NCBI GenBank assembly: GCA_017473085.1
Contig: JAFUNF010000027.1
Location: forward strand, 1 to 38,715
Direction of reading: 5' to 3'
DNA: 38,715 nucleotides
Source of the DNA: Clostridia bacterium
GTDB lineage: Bacteria; Bacillota; Clostridia; Oscillospirales; CAG-272
Shown here piece after piece: positions 5,578 to 34,879 of this stretch. A model generated the notes under the pieces. That model saw nothing but the letters and a program-made list of their open reading frames with translations, was not told the DNA's origin and ran no database searches. A program made the position numbers and the translations under genes. Numbering within the stretch: the first letter of the stretch is position 1; each line of letters opens with the position of its first letter.

Positions 5578-7439
5578 ACCTGTCCCTCCTCTATATCAAT
5601 ATAGTTTTGAGCTTGCTTTCTGAACATATCTACATATTCACCATTTAAAGCCATAAGCTCAGAATGAGTTCCACTTTCGATAATTTCTCCATCCTTTAGC
5701 ATATATATTCTGTCAGCACTTACTGCACTTGAAAGTCTATGAGATATAAAAACCATACCCTTTCCCTTGCCCATTTCCATCATTCCTGTATACATTTTGC
5801 TTTCTGCAACAGGGTCAAGTGCCGATGTAGGCTCGTCAAGAACTACAAAGGGAGAGTTTTTAAGAAACGCGTGGGCAATAGCAAGCTTTTGTCCCTCTCC
5901 AACGGACAAAACAGCTCCCTTTTCACTAAATTCCTTAGTTAAAAGTGTGTCTATTCCATTTTCTAATGACATTATTTTTTCATAGGCTCCACTAAGCTTT
6001 AACGCCTCGATTACCTTTTCCTCGTCCCCTTCCCTTTTTGGACGCATCAGGACATTTTCTATAACAGGCAGAGCTATAAGCTTAAAATCCTGAAATACGA
6101 CACTGAACAGGCTTCTGTATTCCTTAACCTTAAGCTCTCTTACATCGTCGTTTCCTATGGTAACCTTACCATTTATTGGGTCATAAAGCCTTAAAAGTAG
6201 CTTAACAAGTGTGCTTTTTCCCGCACCATTGTGCCCTACTAAGGCAATTTTTTCCTTTGGATTTATTTCCAGATTTATATTTTTTAAAACGTACTTGTCG
6301 CTTCCCTCGTATTTGAAGGATACATTTTCTAACTTTATCGTTCCTACATTTACATCCCTTGCATCAGGCTTGTCCTTAACCTTAGGCTCATAATCAAGAA
6401 ATTCCCTCAAGTCCTGAATAAAAAGTGACTTTTCGTGCAAGTGAAAATATTGGTTAGTTATGTTTATAAATGTGCCTGAAAGCTCTGATACTGAGTTTAT
6501 AACAACAGCACAGCCACCTAATCCAAGTGCCACTCCCCAGGGCAATATTCCAAAGGCAGACAAGACTGCGTATGCAATTGCTAAGGGATTAGCCAGTATG
6601 CTTGAAAGCTTGTTTCCAAGAATATCCAGTGCCATTTCTATTTTTCCGTATTTGTCAACGACACCCATACGTCCATCTGATGCCTCGTCGTATTTATTGA
6701 GCATAAAGCTTTTTGCATTTGTAAGGCGCATTTCCTTTGCATAGTCAACAGAGTAAAATACTCTTTGAGCATATTGACATCTTCTGTGAAGGATTTTGTC
6801 CTCGGTTGTATGCTTGTGCCATAGCTCGTTGCTTTTCTTCTTAAAGAAGGAGCCTATAAGTGGAATAAGTGCAAAAACTACAAACACAGGGTCCATTTGG
6901 AACAAAAGTCCACCATATAAAACCATACTTAAAATTGTTCCAAGCAAATAAAAGGTAACATAGGTAACATTAAATATATGGTTTGGCATATCCAAGGTTG
7001 CTCTTACGTATTTGTCATAAAATTCAGGTGTTTCATAGCAGGCAAGCTCTACGCTTTTATTCTTTTCGAATACCATTTTGCTAATTGATGCAGAAATTTT
7101 TATCCTTGCCTGACCCCAGGTAAAGTCTGTGACTAAGCCTATAAGCAGGCTTGAAAGCACGGGCACAAGCATCATAATAACAACGCTTAAGCAAACGTCC
7201 TTAAATTCTACGTTGCCACTTGAATACATATCAATTACGTATTTCAATGAATATGTACCTGTTACAAAATATACCAAGCTGTCTGATAAATAGGAAATAA
7301 GTAAAATTATCATAGAGTCAGGTGCAATTTTAAAGCTTACTCCAAGTGCAAAAAAGGTATTTTTCATAACCTTCCCAAAAGATGCTCGTCTTTTCTTGTC
7401 CTTGTCTGTTGACTTTTTTGTTTTATCCCTTGTATTCAA
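5574..7439 (-). CDS. ABC exporter half, permease fused to ATPase (first subunit)
   Basis: A 621-residue half-transporter. The start is TTG at 7439, nine bases after GGAGG (plus 7449-7453). An ATG at 7499 in the same frame would lie within the promoter and is rejected. A basic N-terminus (KKSTDKDKKRR) precedes the membrane domain, then Walker A GHNGAGKST near residue 406, signature LSVGEGQ near 513, Walker B FVVLDEPTSALD near 535 and ISHRLS near 568. The signature has valine where the second glycine of LSGGQ is usual, while the partner keeps LSGGE. Such asymmetry is common in heterodimeric exporters, so the two ATP sites may be unequal. It overlaps its partner gene by four bases. Confidence 0.9.
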   Translation of the reverse strand: MNTRDKTKKSTDKDKKRRASFGKVMKNTFFALGVSFKIAPDSMIILLISYLSDSLVYFVTGTYSLKYVIDMYSSGNVEFKDVCLSVVIMMLVPVLSSLLIGLVTDFTWGQARIKISASISKMVFEKNKSVELACYETPEFYDKYVRATLDMPNHIFNVTYVTFYLLGTILSMVLYGGLLFQMDPVFVVFALIPLIGSFFKKKSNELWHKHTTEDKILHRRCQYAQRVFYSVDYAKEMRLTNAKSFMLNKYDEASDGRMGVVDKYGKIEMALDILGNKLSSILANPLAIAYAVLSAFGILPWGVALGLGGCAVVINSVSELSGTFINITNQYFHLHEKSLFIQDLREFLDYEPKVKDKPDARDVNVGTIKLENVSFKYEGSDKYVLKNINLEINPKEKIALVGHNGAGKSTLVKLLLRLYDPINGKVTIGNDDVRELKVKEYRSLFSVVFQDFKLIALPVIENVLMRPKREGDEEKVIEALKLSGAYEKIMSLENGIDTLLTKEFSEKGAVLSVGEGQKLAIAHAFLKNSPFVVLDEPTSALDPVAESKMYTGMMEMGKGKGMVFISHRLSSAVSADRIYMLKDGEIIESGTHSELMALNGEYVDMFRKQAQNYIDIEEGQV

Positions 7440-13058: not shown

Positions 13059-13191
13059 TATAGCAATATAACCAAAGTTGTATATTTTGCACAAGTTTTT
13101 TTATTTTTTTGTAGGTTTTAAATTTATTTTAGACAAAACGCCCATACAAAGAGGACTAACAAAAAGGTGCAAATTAAAAGCACAAGATTTA

Positions 13192-13392
13192 GCGTGATGT
13201 CCTCAACGGACAATCACGCAGTTAAATCCGTCTTCAACAGGAGAAATCCACTCTTGGTGGATGAAATCGCTTTCGCGGTGAAATCCTGCTTCGCAGGACT
13301 GCAAGATAGACGGATTAGATTTCATTCAAGTCTTGACTTGGATTTCATTTGAACAAAGTGAAGATTTCATTGTTGTCTTACAACGATTTCAT
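13192..13392. repeat. Variable-hairpin array 1 with ATGAAATC linkers
   Basis: This non-coding stretch is almost entirely short hairpins: 13192-13219 (11 pairs, one bulged A), 13246-13262, 13266-13279, 13284-13298, 13324-13343, 13346-13362 and 13369-13387. The octamer ATGAAATC or GTGAAATC separates the left hairpins (13261, 13278). Its complement GATTTCAT recurs at 13318, 13341, 13363 and 13385, so the right half points the other way. An outer nine-base stem (13225-13233 with 13308-13316) encloses the left hairpins. Stem sequences differ from one unit to the next, yet each pairs with itself. No reading frame is plausible. Confidence 0.75.
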
Positions 13393-13403
13393 TCAACTAA
13401 CTG

Positions 13404-13451
13404 AAAAAGAGGAAATATTTCGGCTATGAAACCGATTTATTTCCTCTTTTT
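13404..13451 (-). terminator. Terminator behind hpt
   Basis: The arms 13404-13416 and 13439-13451 form a 13-base stem with A and T ends. The loop contains a smaller TCGG/CCGA pairing. It lies 10 bases past the hpt stop and could act in both directions. Confidence 0.8.
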
Positions 13452-13460
13452 GATTTTTTA

Positions 13461-23025: not shown

Positions 23026-23032
23026 ACGTTTC

Positions 23033-24307
23033 TTATGAATTATCGGCAAGTACACAGTCAACCATATATCCGCCAAATTCTATCTCTTTATTTTCATATT
23101 CGCTTACACGATAATTTGATGAGTTATGAAGATTGTTGATATACTCTTGGTCTGATGTAGAATATTTGATTAAAATTCTAAATTGTTTTATTCCTGTTTT
23201 AGTGATTTCTGCCACCTTAAACTTGTTTGTTTCTCCAATCCCTCCTAATTCTGTAGAATCAATAAAATATCCTTCATCCACGAACAATCTAACAGCGCCC
23301 TCTGGGCATTCTTTACTCATTCCGTTTGCCTCAAAGATTGCATTGACAAGGTCATTGCGAGTGTTTTGGACGTCTGTGAAATAAGAGAAGAAATAGTCTA
23401 CTTGTGCAGTTGAAATCTTTATATTTTCAGCCTTTAAAAAGTCTTCTAAAGATATATTGTTTGCAAAATCTATTGTTCCATATCGATAGCTTGATTCGTC
23501 ATCATCAATTTTATATTTCAAAAAAAGTCCAGCACCTGTGATTTTGTCATCGCCCTCCAAAATCCATTTCGCTTCTTCAATATTGTTTTTATCATAGTTT
23601 ACAGCTACGCACTCTTTGATAATAGTGTCAAAGCAAGTTGCATTCAAAACTTCGTTTACTTTTTCTGGATAGTCTGCGACAAGGTCGGCAACTGTTTTTG
23701 GAGCAAAATCTTCTGCTTGATAAGGGCTGATTTCAACAGCGCTGTCGCCGAGATTTTCTTTGATTGCGTTTGAGATTTCGGTTTCTATTGAAGAGTCTGT
23801 TTTTTTGTACTCTTCCTTTGCATCAAAGGTCATAATGCTTTCGCTTTCAATTGTGATTTGCACCACCTCGATATTGCCGTCAAGTATATCATCAATATCA
23901 ACTGAGGTTAAAAATTCGATTGTCGCAACCTTAAGCTCTCTTTCGGTATCCCCTGTTTTTACAACGTTTGCCACCAAAATTTGCTCAATCGTATCCTCTT
24001 CTCCTATGTAGGCATAGGATGTGCTGATTGCATCCTTTATATAAGAGATTTTTTCAATTTGTTGTGACGCAAAGTGATTTGCATCTTCCAAATGTTCTGC
24101 CAAAAGCTCTTCAATGGTTGTATTCTCTTCCACTGGAGGAGTCTCTGTATCGGTAGAAAGAGGGGGTGCTTGTATGCCTATGTCTGTGTCTGTTTGGGTT
24201 TGTGTTTCTTCCTCTGGTGGATTGGAAGTATTACAGCCAAGCAAGGTCACAAGCATACATATAGCAAGGAATAGCACTACTATTTCTTTTATTTTTTGAA
24301 TTTTCAT
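23033..24307 (-). CDS. Secreted lipoprotein of unknown function
   Basis: A 424-residue predicted lipoprotein with lipobox LLGC (Cys25). A Thr/Glu/Pro-rich spacer follows (about residues 26-62, with repeated TQTQTDT), typical of a stalk to carry a domain off the membrane. The rest is acidic and mostly soluble, with several EEA, EIS and VNEVLNATC-like segments but no motif I recognise. The start ATG has GAGGAG seven bases ahead and lies 15 bases behind the DUF1295 gene, so it is the last gene of the sdaA operon. Its codon use appears somewhat more mixed than its neighbours (inference by eye). Confidence 0.7.
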   Translation of the reverse strand: MKIQKIKEIVVLFLAICMLVTLLGCNTSNPPEEETQTQTDTDIGIQAPPLSTDTETPPVEENTTIEELLAEHLEDANHFASQQIEKISYIKDAISTSYAYIGEEDTIEQILVANVVKTGDTERELKVATIEFLTSVDIDDILDGNIEVVQITIESESIMTFDAKEEYKKTDSSIETEISNAIKENLGDSAVEISPYQAEDFAPKTVADLVADYPEKVNEVLNATCFDTIIKECVAVNYDKNNIEEAKWILEGDDKITGAGLFLKYKIDDDESSYRYGTIDFANNISLEDFLKAENIKISTAQVDYFFSYFTDVQNTRNDLVNAIFEANGMSKECPEGAVRLFVDEGYFIDSTELGGIGETNKFKVAEITKTGIKQFRILIKYSTSDQEYINNLHNSSNYRVSEYENKEIEFGGYMVDCVLADNS

Positions 24308-24322
24308 TATTTCTCCTCAAGG

Positions 24323-25183
24323 TCATCTTTTAATCTTGAAGGGCAAAAGGTAATTGGTTGCTTTTTTGTATTCCTCAAAGCCTTCCTTTTTGCCTTGTCT
24401 TTTCTCTGCCATTGGTATGCTTACAAAGGCAAACAAAAGTGTGTTGGCTAAGGCACCTAATAGTAAATACCATGCAGTTGGTACAGCTATTGTGCAAGCA
24501 ATACCTATTCCCCACCACATTAAAATTTCTGCTAAGTAGTTAGGGTGGCGAGAATGCTTCCAAACACCATTTCTTATAAATGGTGTTTTTTTGGTTTTTC
24601 TATATTTGTGCATTTGTGTATCGGCAACGCCTTGAAGCACTATTGCACCAAGCGATATTACAAGTCCTATATATGCAAGTGGATTTGCCTCTTGTGTGCT
24701 TGTAAGGGCAGATATACCTGGAGTGACTACCAGATATACAACTATTGTTGGCACTAAGTGAATACCCACAAAATTGATTATAGGATAGAATTTTTTTGTT
24801 TGTTCCTTTAGCATTGTATATCGCCAATCCTGATATGTAAGGTCATAAAAGGTATATGCCCAGTTTGCTGTAAGTCTGACTCCCCACAAAATTACTACTA
24901 CAAGAAGTAGCCATTTGAATAGGCTCATTTCAACGCTTGTTGCCAAAAGGGAAAGTATCACAATTGGTTGAACACTCCAATAGGGGTCGTAAACTGATGC
25001 ATTGTTAAATAGCACGCTAAAAACAAAGCACAAGGCAGTTGCACCCACGTCTGCTAAGAAAATTGCAAGGTATAAATTAACTAACGGATAAAGCAAATAA
25101 TATACCCACAAGCCTACTAAAATTGAAAACAAATATACAAGAGCCACAACTAAAAAGCTAAGTCCTCTTTTTCCCTTAAGCAT
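24323..25183 (-). CDS. DUF1295 membrane protein, steroid-reductase/ICMT-like
   Basis: A 286-residue integral membrane protein with about seven hydrophobic helices. The C-terminal block NGVWKHSRHPNYLAEILMWW is the signature of the DUF1295 and isoprenylcysteine-methyltransferase-like fold, where the histidine and asparagine help bind a nucleotide cofactor. Relatives include 3-oxo-5-alpha-steroid 4-dehydrogenase C-terminal domains; the substrate here is likely a lipid but unproven. It starts two bases after the HEPN-like gene with a ribosome site (AAAGGAG) in that gene's end. Confidence 0.82.
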   Translation of the reverse strand: MLKGKRGLSFLVVALVYLFSILVGLWVYYLLYPLVNLYLAIFLADVGATALCFVFSVLFNNASVYDPYWSVQPIVILSLLATSVEMSLFKWLLLVVVILWGVRLTANWAYTFYDLTYQDWRYTMLKEQTKKFYPIINFVGIHLVPTIVVYLVVTPGISALTSTQEANPLAYIGLVISLGAIVLQGVADTQMHKYRKTKKTPFIRNGVWKHSRHPNYLAEILMWWGIGIACTIAVPTAWYLLLGALANTLLFAFVSIPMAEKRQGKKEGFEEYKKATNYLLPFKIKR

Positions 25184-33033: not shown

Positions 33034-33606
33034 ATGAGAATTAAATATCCTATAATAGTTGAGGGAAAATACGACAAAATTAAGCTTGATTCTCTTTTTG
33101 AGGCTACTGTTATTACAACAGGTGGCTTTGAGATTTTCAACAGTCGAGAAAAGGAGCTTTTGATAAAAAGGCTTGCAAGCAAAACTCCTATAATTCTCTT
33201 GACCGACTCTGACGGTGGTGGTCATCTTATTCGCTCCCATATAAAAACTATTTTACCACCTGACAAAATTATTAATCTTTACGTACCAAGGGTTGAAGGT
33301 AAGGAAAAAAGAAAAAGCCAACCATCAAAGGAAGGCATTTTGGGCGTTGAGGGCATTGATAAGGAAACCCTTATTTCTCTTTTAAAGCCCTTTAGTGGCG
33401 ATGGCGAATACATTGCCAAGGGCAATATCACTAAGGTGGATTTCTTCAAATTCGGTCTTAGTGGTGGTAAGGATAGCAAGCAAAAAAGAGAAAAGCTTCT
33501 TTCCTTGCTCAACCTACCAACAAATATGACTGCTAACGCAATGCTCAGCGCAGTCAACATTTTTTACTCCAAGGAAGAGATTGAGAAAATTATTTCTACT
33601 ATGTAA
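33034..33606 (+). CDS. Toprim ribonuclease M5-like protein (DUF4093)
   Basis: A 190-residue Toprim protein related to ribonuclease M5, which trims 5S rRNA precursors. The Toprim glutamate is in IIVEGKYDK near residue 10, and the acidic motif LTDSDGGGHLIRSHI near 57-71 resembles the LTDPDxxG of RNase M5. The C-terminal half carries the DUF4093-type FFKFGLSGGKDSKQKREKLL. The start is only six bases after the holA stop, without a clear Shine-Dalgarno sequence, so translation may rely on coupling. It is the last gene of the cysE operon; a true rnmV cannot be distinguished from a paralogue without a search. Confidence 0.82.
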   Translation: MRIKYPIIVEGKYDKIKLDSLFEATVITTGGFEIFNSREKELLIKRLASKTPIILLTDSDGGGHLIRSHIKTILPPDKIINLYVPRVEGKEKRKSQPSKEGILGVEGIDKETLISLLKPFSGDGEYIAKGNITKVDFFKFGLSGGKDSKQKREKLLSLLNLPTNMTANAMLSAVNIFYSKEEIEKIISTM

Positions 33607-33621
33607 AAAGGTGTCCACGGG
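33605..33621 (+). repeat. Half copy of the downstream terminator
   Basis: AAAAAGGTGTCCACGGG sits at the end of the RNase M5-like gene and nearly equals the left half of the terminator at 33757 (AAAAGGTGTCCACAGGG). It lacks its own complementary arm. Confidence 0.75.
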
Positions 33622-33737
33622 CTCACCTGCGAAAAACAGGCGAGCCAATGAAATTTGCCCATTCGGGCAAGTGAAATCGCTACACGATGAAATATTTGCT
33701 ACGCAAATGTGAAATGTTCGCTTTGCGAACGTGACTA
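33620..33737 (+). repeat. Variable-hairpin array 2 with RTGAAAT linkers
   Basis: Five hairpins in a row: 33620-33646 (GGCTC and CCTG arms, one mismatch), 33655-33670, 33676-33688, 33694-33708 and 33716-33730. The linker ATGAAAT or GTGAAAT stands between them at 33648, 33671, 33687 and 33709, and a decayed GTGACTA follows at 33731. Linker starts are 23, 16, 22 and 22 bases apart. Stem sequences are all different. This is the same design as array 1 at 13192. It lies in the 517-base gap between the convergent RNase M5-like gene and tpiA. Confidence 0.75.
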
Positions 33738-33756
33738 AATTACATTTTAAATAATG

Positions 33757-33783
33757 AAAAGGTGTCCACAGGGACACCTTTTT
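33757..33783 (+). terminator. Terminator of the cysE operon
   Basis: AAAAGGTGTCC (33757-33767) pairs with 33772-33782 around ACAG and ends in T-run. It is the full version of the half copy at 33605. Nearly the same hairpin recurs at 33952-33979. Confidence 0.85.
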
Positions 33784-33951
33784 CGTATAACTACATTGAA
33801 TCTGCAAATTGGAAGCTAAATCCACCTTTATCTTGACACAGGAGAAGCAAGAAATTCAAGGCGCACCTCACGTGCCCCCCTAAAATTCCTTAAATTTTGG
33901 GGAACCCCTACTTAGCCACAGACGAAGGCTATCTTACGATAGTCGAAGTGA

Positions 33952-33979
33952 AAAAAGGTGTCCATTAGGACACCTTTTT
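33952..33979 (-). terminator. Bidirectional terminator, likely for tpiA
   Basis: AAAAAGGTGTCC (33952-33963) pairs perfectly with 33968-33979 around ATTA, with A and T ends. It lies 145 bases beyond the tpiA stop and could end its leftward transcript. Confidence 0.75.

Positions 33980-34123: not shown

Positions 34124-34879
<756 letters not shown>

Follow-up and report, generated by a model that had tools for sequence, protein, structure and literature searches.

A Gut-1 hairpin array behind a clostridial rnmV-like gene: probable truncated copy of a small mobile element that targets terminator loops

The hairpin array behind an rnmV-like gene in the 38,715-nt stretch of Clostridia bacterium DNA analysed here (the window) belongs to an already listed Rfam family, Gut-1 RNA (RF01706). 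It is probably what is left, after truncation, of a small mobile element (∼0.3–0.45 kb, non-autonomous) of gut Clostridia that targets terminator loops. We refer to it as array 2 and to a similar array elsewhere in the window as array 1; on sequence comparison, both are truncated, they derive from different element types, and each lies in the terminator of a gene. The preliminary description had placed both arrays behind gene ends. That position is correct and is explained by terminator targeting, but what stands there are truncated insertions of two element types in terminators, missing from a sister genome, and the family is one that Rfam already holds.

Two truncated copies in the window and their empty sites in sister genomes

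Array 2 stands where the rnmV-like gene (+ strand, ending at 33606) faces a triose-phosphate isomerase gene (– strand, ending at 34124), flanking gene ends that agree with the preliminary description. The features of the site are as follows.

33034..33606, + strand: rnmV-like gene; the element is inserted in its terminator (TIGR00334, E-value 1.6e–20, 73.9 bits, below the curated 110.65)
33604..33618, + strand: left arm and two bases of the loop of the rnmV terminator, TAAAAAGGTGTCCAC, adjoining the left side of the element (comparison with sister genomes G005 and G026)
33619..33748, + strand: array 2, left part of a terminator-inserted hairpin element, cut off past the last linker-bounded hairpin (similarity to locus L208)
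33619..33646, + strand: left-end hairpin of the element, GGGCTCACCTG..CAGGCGAGCC (sequence, fold and alignment with relatives)
33646..33720, + strand: RF01706 (Gut-1 RNA) match, 59.8 bits against a gathering cut-off of 50 (Rfam scan)
33655..33670, + strand: hairpin TTGCCC-ATTC-GGGCAA (sequence, fold)
33678..33686, + strand: weak hairpin CGCTACACG (sequence, fold)
33694..33708, + strand: hairpin ATTTGC-TAC-GCAAAT (sequence, fold)
33716..33730, + strand: hairpin GTTCGC-TTT-GCGAAC (sequence, fold)
33757..33783, + strand: complete terminator copy on the right-hand side of the element, with 33606–33618 repeated in its first 13 nt (repeat family D1)
33953..33979, + strand: further terminator copy, with downstream sequence that aligns with the sister's sequence past the rnmV terminator (repeat and sister alignment)

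The five hairpins and four RTGAAAT linkers of the preliminary description were confirmed, with linkers starting at 33648, 33671, 33687 and 33709 (spacing 23, 16 and 22); the fourth step, again of 22, ends at 33731, where the would-be fifth linker has decayed to GTGACTA. The region folds far better than expected by chance (33605–33740, –48.4 kcal/mol versus –29.8 ± 3.6 in 200 shuffles, z = –5.15, no shuffle equal). The linker word RTGAAAT is only mildly enriched across the window (31 occurrences versus 20.2 ± 5.4 expected, with 31 reached in 4 of 100 shuffles), so that the arrays stand out and the word alone does not.

Array 2 is 83% identical to L208 over 160 nt (window 33604–33761) and 80–83% identical over 130 nt to four further loci (L222, L247, L248 and L250). 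Similarity to L208 fades shortly past the last linker-bounded hairpin, and the second half of the element is absent. The geometry is that of the split-terminator copies described below, with 66 nt from 33605 to 33671. A clean 2-bp target duplication is not seen at this site; the 13-nt repeat at 33606 and 33757 is longer than the usual 2-bp duplication and is not that duplication. A third terminator copy stands 196 nt beyond the second, and tandem duplication plus deletion seems the simplest account of the site's history.

Sister genome G005, about 81% identical, is colinear with window positions 1821–38545 at about 80–89% identity, and the alignment has three breaks longer than 100 nt: 13138–13457 (array 1), 23026–24324 (an ORF) and 33617–33950 (array 2). 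Ordinary terminators occupy both array sites in G005. At the rnmV site, G005 and G026 carry rnmV and then directly AAAAAAGGTGTCCGTTAGGGACACCTTTT and AAAAAAAGGTGTCCTTTTGGACACCTTTTT, with no array in either; the array 2 site was thus compared with two sisters and the array 1 site with one (G005). Another copy, L010, has a site that is also empty of the element in both G005 and G026. The terminators there differ in sequence between the sisters and the split copy; hence, absence is shown but an exact empty site is not. The remaining break is a 1.3-kb stretch that holds a 424-aa ORF (23033–24307, minus strand) absent from G005, and this ORF has no Pfam match.

Array 1 comprises the following features.

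13176..13186, + strand: left arm AAAAGCACAAG, resembling by eye the terminator beside hpt in G005 (AAAGCACAGG..CCTGTGCTTT)
13191..13452, + strand: array 1, right-truncated element of a 46-copy subfamily, with left end AGCGTGATGTCC.., RTGAAAT array and first right-domain hairpin (similarity to L022)
13404..13451, + strand: right-domain terminator-like hairpin AAAAAGAGGAAATATTTCGG..CCGATTTATTTCCTCTTTTT (sequence, subfamily comparison)

It is 83% identical over 275 nt to L022, located elsewhere in the same genome, and lacks the right end. Its linkers start at 13261 and 13278 (+) and at 13319, 13342, 13364 and 13386 (–). Matches to RF01706 score 37.4 and 23 bits, both under the cut-off of 50.

Spread of the family and structure of complete elements

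The preliminary description had predicted a family from two arrays and had chosen beforehand, as the refuting outcome, a covariance-model scan that hits only these two loci. RF01706 instead matches 62 dispersed places in the 1.7-Mb source genome at E ≤ 1 (4 above cut-off), and the prediction is borne out by matches at E ≤ 1e–4 in 44 of 57 genomes (the source and 56 relatives), 38 of which have matches above cut-off, with up to 50 matches per genome. Among genomes drawn from the class, 34 of 196 (source genome included) have matches at E ≤ 1e–4; 14 control genomes gave none above cut-off. A search with the linker pattern matched at least 113 stretches. Among the 80 matches listed, whose titles were read by eye, clostridial names account for 71 and other taxa for 6, and the remaining 3 are vague (two Bacillota, one ‘bacterium’), so most titles agree with the suggested host range of Clostridia.

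The survey of Weinberg et al. (2010; PMC2864571), in the part that concerns Gut-1, lists it from human gut alone and from environmental sequences only. Six of 13 named linker-pattern loci scanned with Rfam gave a Gut-1 match above cut-off, and the titles name, among others, goat rectum (L071), the colons of roe deer (L106) and sheep (L129) and water buffalo cecum (L135), which extends the family beyond the human gut. The contig that carries the L135 match (6463–6542, 58.1 bits, above cut-off) is titled Akkermansia sp., which may reflect misbinning or a transfer between phyla. Thirteen viral contigs (L184–L196) match a three-linker pattern.

Several lines of evidence define the complete element. 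Seven loci of genome G003 share elements that are 84–97% identical over 153–212 nt and have different left flanks, several of them at contig ends. In L207, the terminator is split into AAAAAGGATATCGC and GCGATATCCTTTTT, with the element between them. We found exact A-tract inverted repeats of at least 9 nt around 12 of 153 distinct arrays (many of them shortened by contig ends) versus 2.3 ± 1.3 (maximum 6) in 30 permutations; duplicate window loci (L001, L003, L006 and L032) were left out. In 10 of the 12, the left arm begins 66–72 nt from the first recognised linker. This test and the arm test given below replace an earlier unrestricted inverted-repeat test, whose null was polluted by homology among the elements.

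A conserved right end, TTCTCCGCTAAGAACNTCACC (≤1 mismatch), is present in 25 of the 57 genomes (reversed control pattern, 0 matches); among 391 genomes drawn from the class, however, just 3 have it, one of them the source genome. Pairing it with the left end AGCGTG.. yielded 52 records and, after an orientation filter and duplicate removal, 46 unique elements, two of which (L109 and L173) align in the reverse orientation. Forty-four of these are 300–443 nt long and the other two 530 and 1038 nt; each of the two longer elements carries an ORF without Pfam match, and no transposase is found in the subfamily. Terminal inverted repeats are imperfect and ∼20 nt long (columns 4–24 pair with 476–495, RNAalifold, 11 elements). 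Perfect flanking arms of at least 8 nt bracket 29 of 46 elements (17 of 2070 mismatched pairings), and arms of at least 10 nt bracket 26 (3 of 2070); the A- and T-tracts of a terminator are present in 23 of the 29, and 17 elements have no perfect arms of at least 8 nt. A 2-bp target duplication is seen at 37 of 46 elements versus 16 expected, counting one extra right-end base, in a frame picked from six candidates (2 or 3 bp at each of three offsets); other offsets give 7 and 9. The duplicated bases are TT (20), AT (8), TA (7) or others (2), and once the flanks are joined, most of these 37 sites regain a hairpin around TT, AT or TA, as in L063 (AAAGAGGTTGTCGT-TA-CGACAACCTCTTT). The elements thus show the marks of MITEs, being short and without transposase, with imperfect terminal inverted repeats and a 2-bp target duplication.

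The target of the L268 element is no terminator; it is a dispersed palindrome, GGACGACCAATGGTCGCC, which occurs in L127, L211, L215, L219 and L268; copies in L211, L215 and L219, of the same genome (G024), are free of the element, and L268 is the one element there that has this target. Some array copies directly follow tRNA or tmRNA genes and their terminators (L206, L220, L228, L235, L237, L238 and L239; also L071, L106 and L147). Three of them (L206, L220 and L235) finish in a similar stretch, GAGTTCGAA.., that resembles a worn tRNA 3′ end.

The interior is modular. It consists of ∼7 hairpins with variable stems, joined by 7-nt linkers that are nearly identical and that run forward in one half, the first, and as reverse complements in the other. 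Eight linker types occur on the common ends: GTGAAGT (11, plus a remnant in L262), RTGAAAT (9, two reversed), GTTATGA (8), GTGATAT (7) and, more rarely, ATGAATT (4), TCGATAT (2), GCGATAT (1) and ATGATGT (1, L324). Between the same ends, an ORF replaces the array in L268 (86 aa) and L320 (169 aa), neither with a Pfam match. Other end types, array 2 being one, follow the same plan. The Rfam model spans 77 nt of the RTGAAAT array, with the same linkers and hairpins, and in a second set of 13 loci scanned with Rfam the only arrays to reach the gathering threshold were RTGAAAT-type. Arrays with TCGATAT, GTGATAT, GCGATAT, GTTATGA and ATGAATT linkers (L261, L263, L283, L275 and L063) gave no match at this threshold, and the GTGAAGT copy L010 scored 49.9 bits, just below 50.

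Folding, candidate mobilisers and competing readings

We propose that a trans-acting transposase or recombinase would recognise the element ends and use terminator hairpins as targets. Insertion into a loop may be tolerated because the split arms could re-pair around the element and the right domain would supply a terminator-like hairpin of its own. The array itself would be a folded cis-acting module of the element, not a free RNA gene. Folding is strong in complete copies (L010, z = –10.7). Since second-half linkers are reverse complements of the forward ones, the two halves are able to zip together, and the ends pair too.

It is possible, though we would not call it likely, that the hairpins matter as DNA and that a recombinase acts on the array in a folded single-stranded or cruciform state, much as with attC or RAYT substrates; this reading is compatible with the mobile element. 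Among accepted stems, 290 of 331 are perfect, a share partly selected by a filter that admits at most one mismatch. On the ATTTCAY strand, 272 of 331 stems have a C–G closing pair; triloops are GNA in 72 of 173 cases (ANA 44), tetraloops are GNNA in 60 of 132 (28 GNRA, no GNRA bias), and CTTG occurs 21 times. GNA triloops are stable DNA loops. The loop types of this strand resemble stable DNA loops; the tetraloops d(cGNNAg) and d(cCNNGg) are called stable in the title of Nakano 2002, a reference cited by PMC5090098. With DNA energy parameters, however, same-direction runs show little difference between their strands (57 versus 38, mean –0.10).

Y1 transposase (RAYT/IS200, PF01797) was rejected as mobiliser. 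Its copies in the source genome show, by eye, no array at their ends, and although it occurs in 27 of 57 genomes, it is absent from G056 (44 Gut-1 matches), G044, G036, G003, G009 and G024, which also counts against a RAYT-like substrate. A RAYT-like Y1 transposase of 250 aa in L198 (1117–1869) has short repeats of its own, GACAAGCCACCGTCCCCTGTC, unrelated to the arrays. PF00665 (rve), found in 11 of 29 genomes of the genus (source included), was likewise set aside, as none occurs in G010, G019, G009 or G011, each with several elements. No element ends (≤4 mismatches) surround PF00665 transposases in 15 loci, and for the two families covered (PF00665 and PF01797) no end pair in the loci examined encloses a transposase, as it would in a related autonomous transposon. 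Viral contigs and plasmids were set aside as carriers, since two exact end patterns gave 0 matches in viral contigs and the right domain gave none against plasmids. A CRISPR-like array was discarded by eye, the linkers being a constant 7 nt and the palindromic units variable.

We consider it unlikely that the arrays are host-serving 3′-end structures of the REP/BIME kind, which stabilise mRNA or reinforce termination and are mobile only incidentally. Stop-to-stop frames of at least 80 codons end within 150 nt of the left side of 38 of 45 elements, of the right side of 32 and of both sides of 26 (counts made without a null), and both truncated window copies still finish at terminator-like hairpins, as such a role would predict. 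Yet sister genomes with plain terminators lack the element, two copies bear ORFs in place of arrays, and conserved ends with a target duplication are marks of a mobile element.

Quite improbable, in our judgement, is a genuine noncoding RNA that is transcribed and acts in trans or as a 3′-UTR element, even though Gut-1 was listed in 2010 as certainly RNA (‘Y’) and probably not cis-regulatory (PMC2864571, in the part that concerns it). The arrays follow genes, so that co-transcription is possible, and double compensatory changes, which speak for RNA, occur in 13 of 95 consensus pairs of 11 aligned elements, the linkers being nearly invariant. The RNAalifold covariation term of that alignment is slightly unfavourable (+2.52 kcal/mol) because the linkers hardly vary and gaps are penalised. 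The RTGAAAT strand folds better as RNA in 87 of 101 same-direction runs (unrelated-taxon loci L099, L100, L111, L135, L138 and L139 omitted, here and in the other run tests). With A as the first base of every linker, this preference nearly disappears (58 versus 43), and perfect hairpin units taken by themselves show the opposite tendency (24 versus 59, 88 ties). The half-run preference therefore hinges on one linker base, and strand tests do not settle RNA versus DNA. Complete elements have no strand preference (top strand favoured in 18 of 42, with L109, L173, L268 and L320 omitted), while the sense strand is favoured by control tmRNAs (11 of 11) and tRNAs (80 of 112); the element halves face opposite ways and would cancel, so this comparison is not taken as proof of DNA-level folding. 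Internal mismatches on the RTGAAAT strand are 9 G–T, 19 A–C and 13 others, a distribution that does not favour RNA pairing. Tens of copies per genome, some absent from sisters, are also unlike an RNA gene.

Chance hairpins or an assembly artefact can be dismissed, given the Rfam match, the shuffle z-scores and copies in most relatives; many fetched copies do lie near contig ends, but this lends no support to an artefact, since repeats are expected there.

Relation to known systems and meaning

The mobile-element reading has its nearest precedent in target choice in IS1272/TnSha1 (IS1182 family), which inserts in hairpins, many of them transcription terminators, with no primary sequence specificity (PMC4923244, parts compared). 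The same parts describe staphylococcal IS1272 as encoding a transposase, making blunt cuts, with loss of part of the stem-loop, and leaving no target duplication; in contrast, Gut-1 elements have no transposase, retain both arms and show a 2-bp duplication. Pneumococcal BOX, RUP and SPRITE are small, high-copy, structured, MITE-like repeats; of these, BOX and RUP carry inverted repeats at their ends and duplicate their targets, and BOX is modular, some large copies encoding ORFs (PMC3049150). BOX is thus a precedent for modular structured MITE-like repeats, some with ORFs, but the sequences differ, BOX modules are sequence-conserved while Gut-1 stems vary between constant linkers, and the parts of that paper compared give no terminator-loop target. 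Group IIC introns, which comprise a ribozyme and a maturase and insert beside a DNA stem-loop, share stem-loop-directed mobility with the Gut-1 elements (PMC10190682, in part); no Rfam intron match reached the gathering threshold in the second set of 13 loci.

REP/BIME sequences with a RAYT transposase are dispersed intergenic palindromes. Unlike these, Gut-1 elements are not tracked by the Y1 transposase. Gut-1 as published is a human-gut noncoding RNA (PMC2864571, in the part that concerns it); the present analysis places it inside a dispersed element that has conserved ends and terminators as targets. Searches of the literature on terminator-targeting small elements and on Gut-1, within a coverage that excludes most subscription journals, yielded no description of the terminator-loop habit, which seems to be undescribed. 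What seems new is this habit together with the interchangeable array modules; the Rfam family, and small non-autonomous mobile repeats as a kind, were already known.

As a bolder and tentative suggestion, the elements might form an unrecognised class of mobile cassettes, whose ends would insert cargo (hairpin arrays with interchangeable, concerted linkers, or small genes) into terminator loops, the host hairpin re-closing and termination being kept. The Gut-1 ‘RNA’ would then be no RNA gene, being instead a control region that is folded and probably acts as DNA, and the mover an enzyme that reads DNA hairpin shape.

With the mobile-element reading, an orphan Rfam RNA family gains a genomic explanation. 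Gut-1 matches could be re-annotated as repeats, and such repeats may break assemblies of gut MAGs. The elements point to an enzyme that reads the shape of a hairpin and has little preference for its sequence. Insertion into terminator loops would amount to a ‘safe harbour’ strategy, which spares genes and may spare termination as well.
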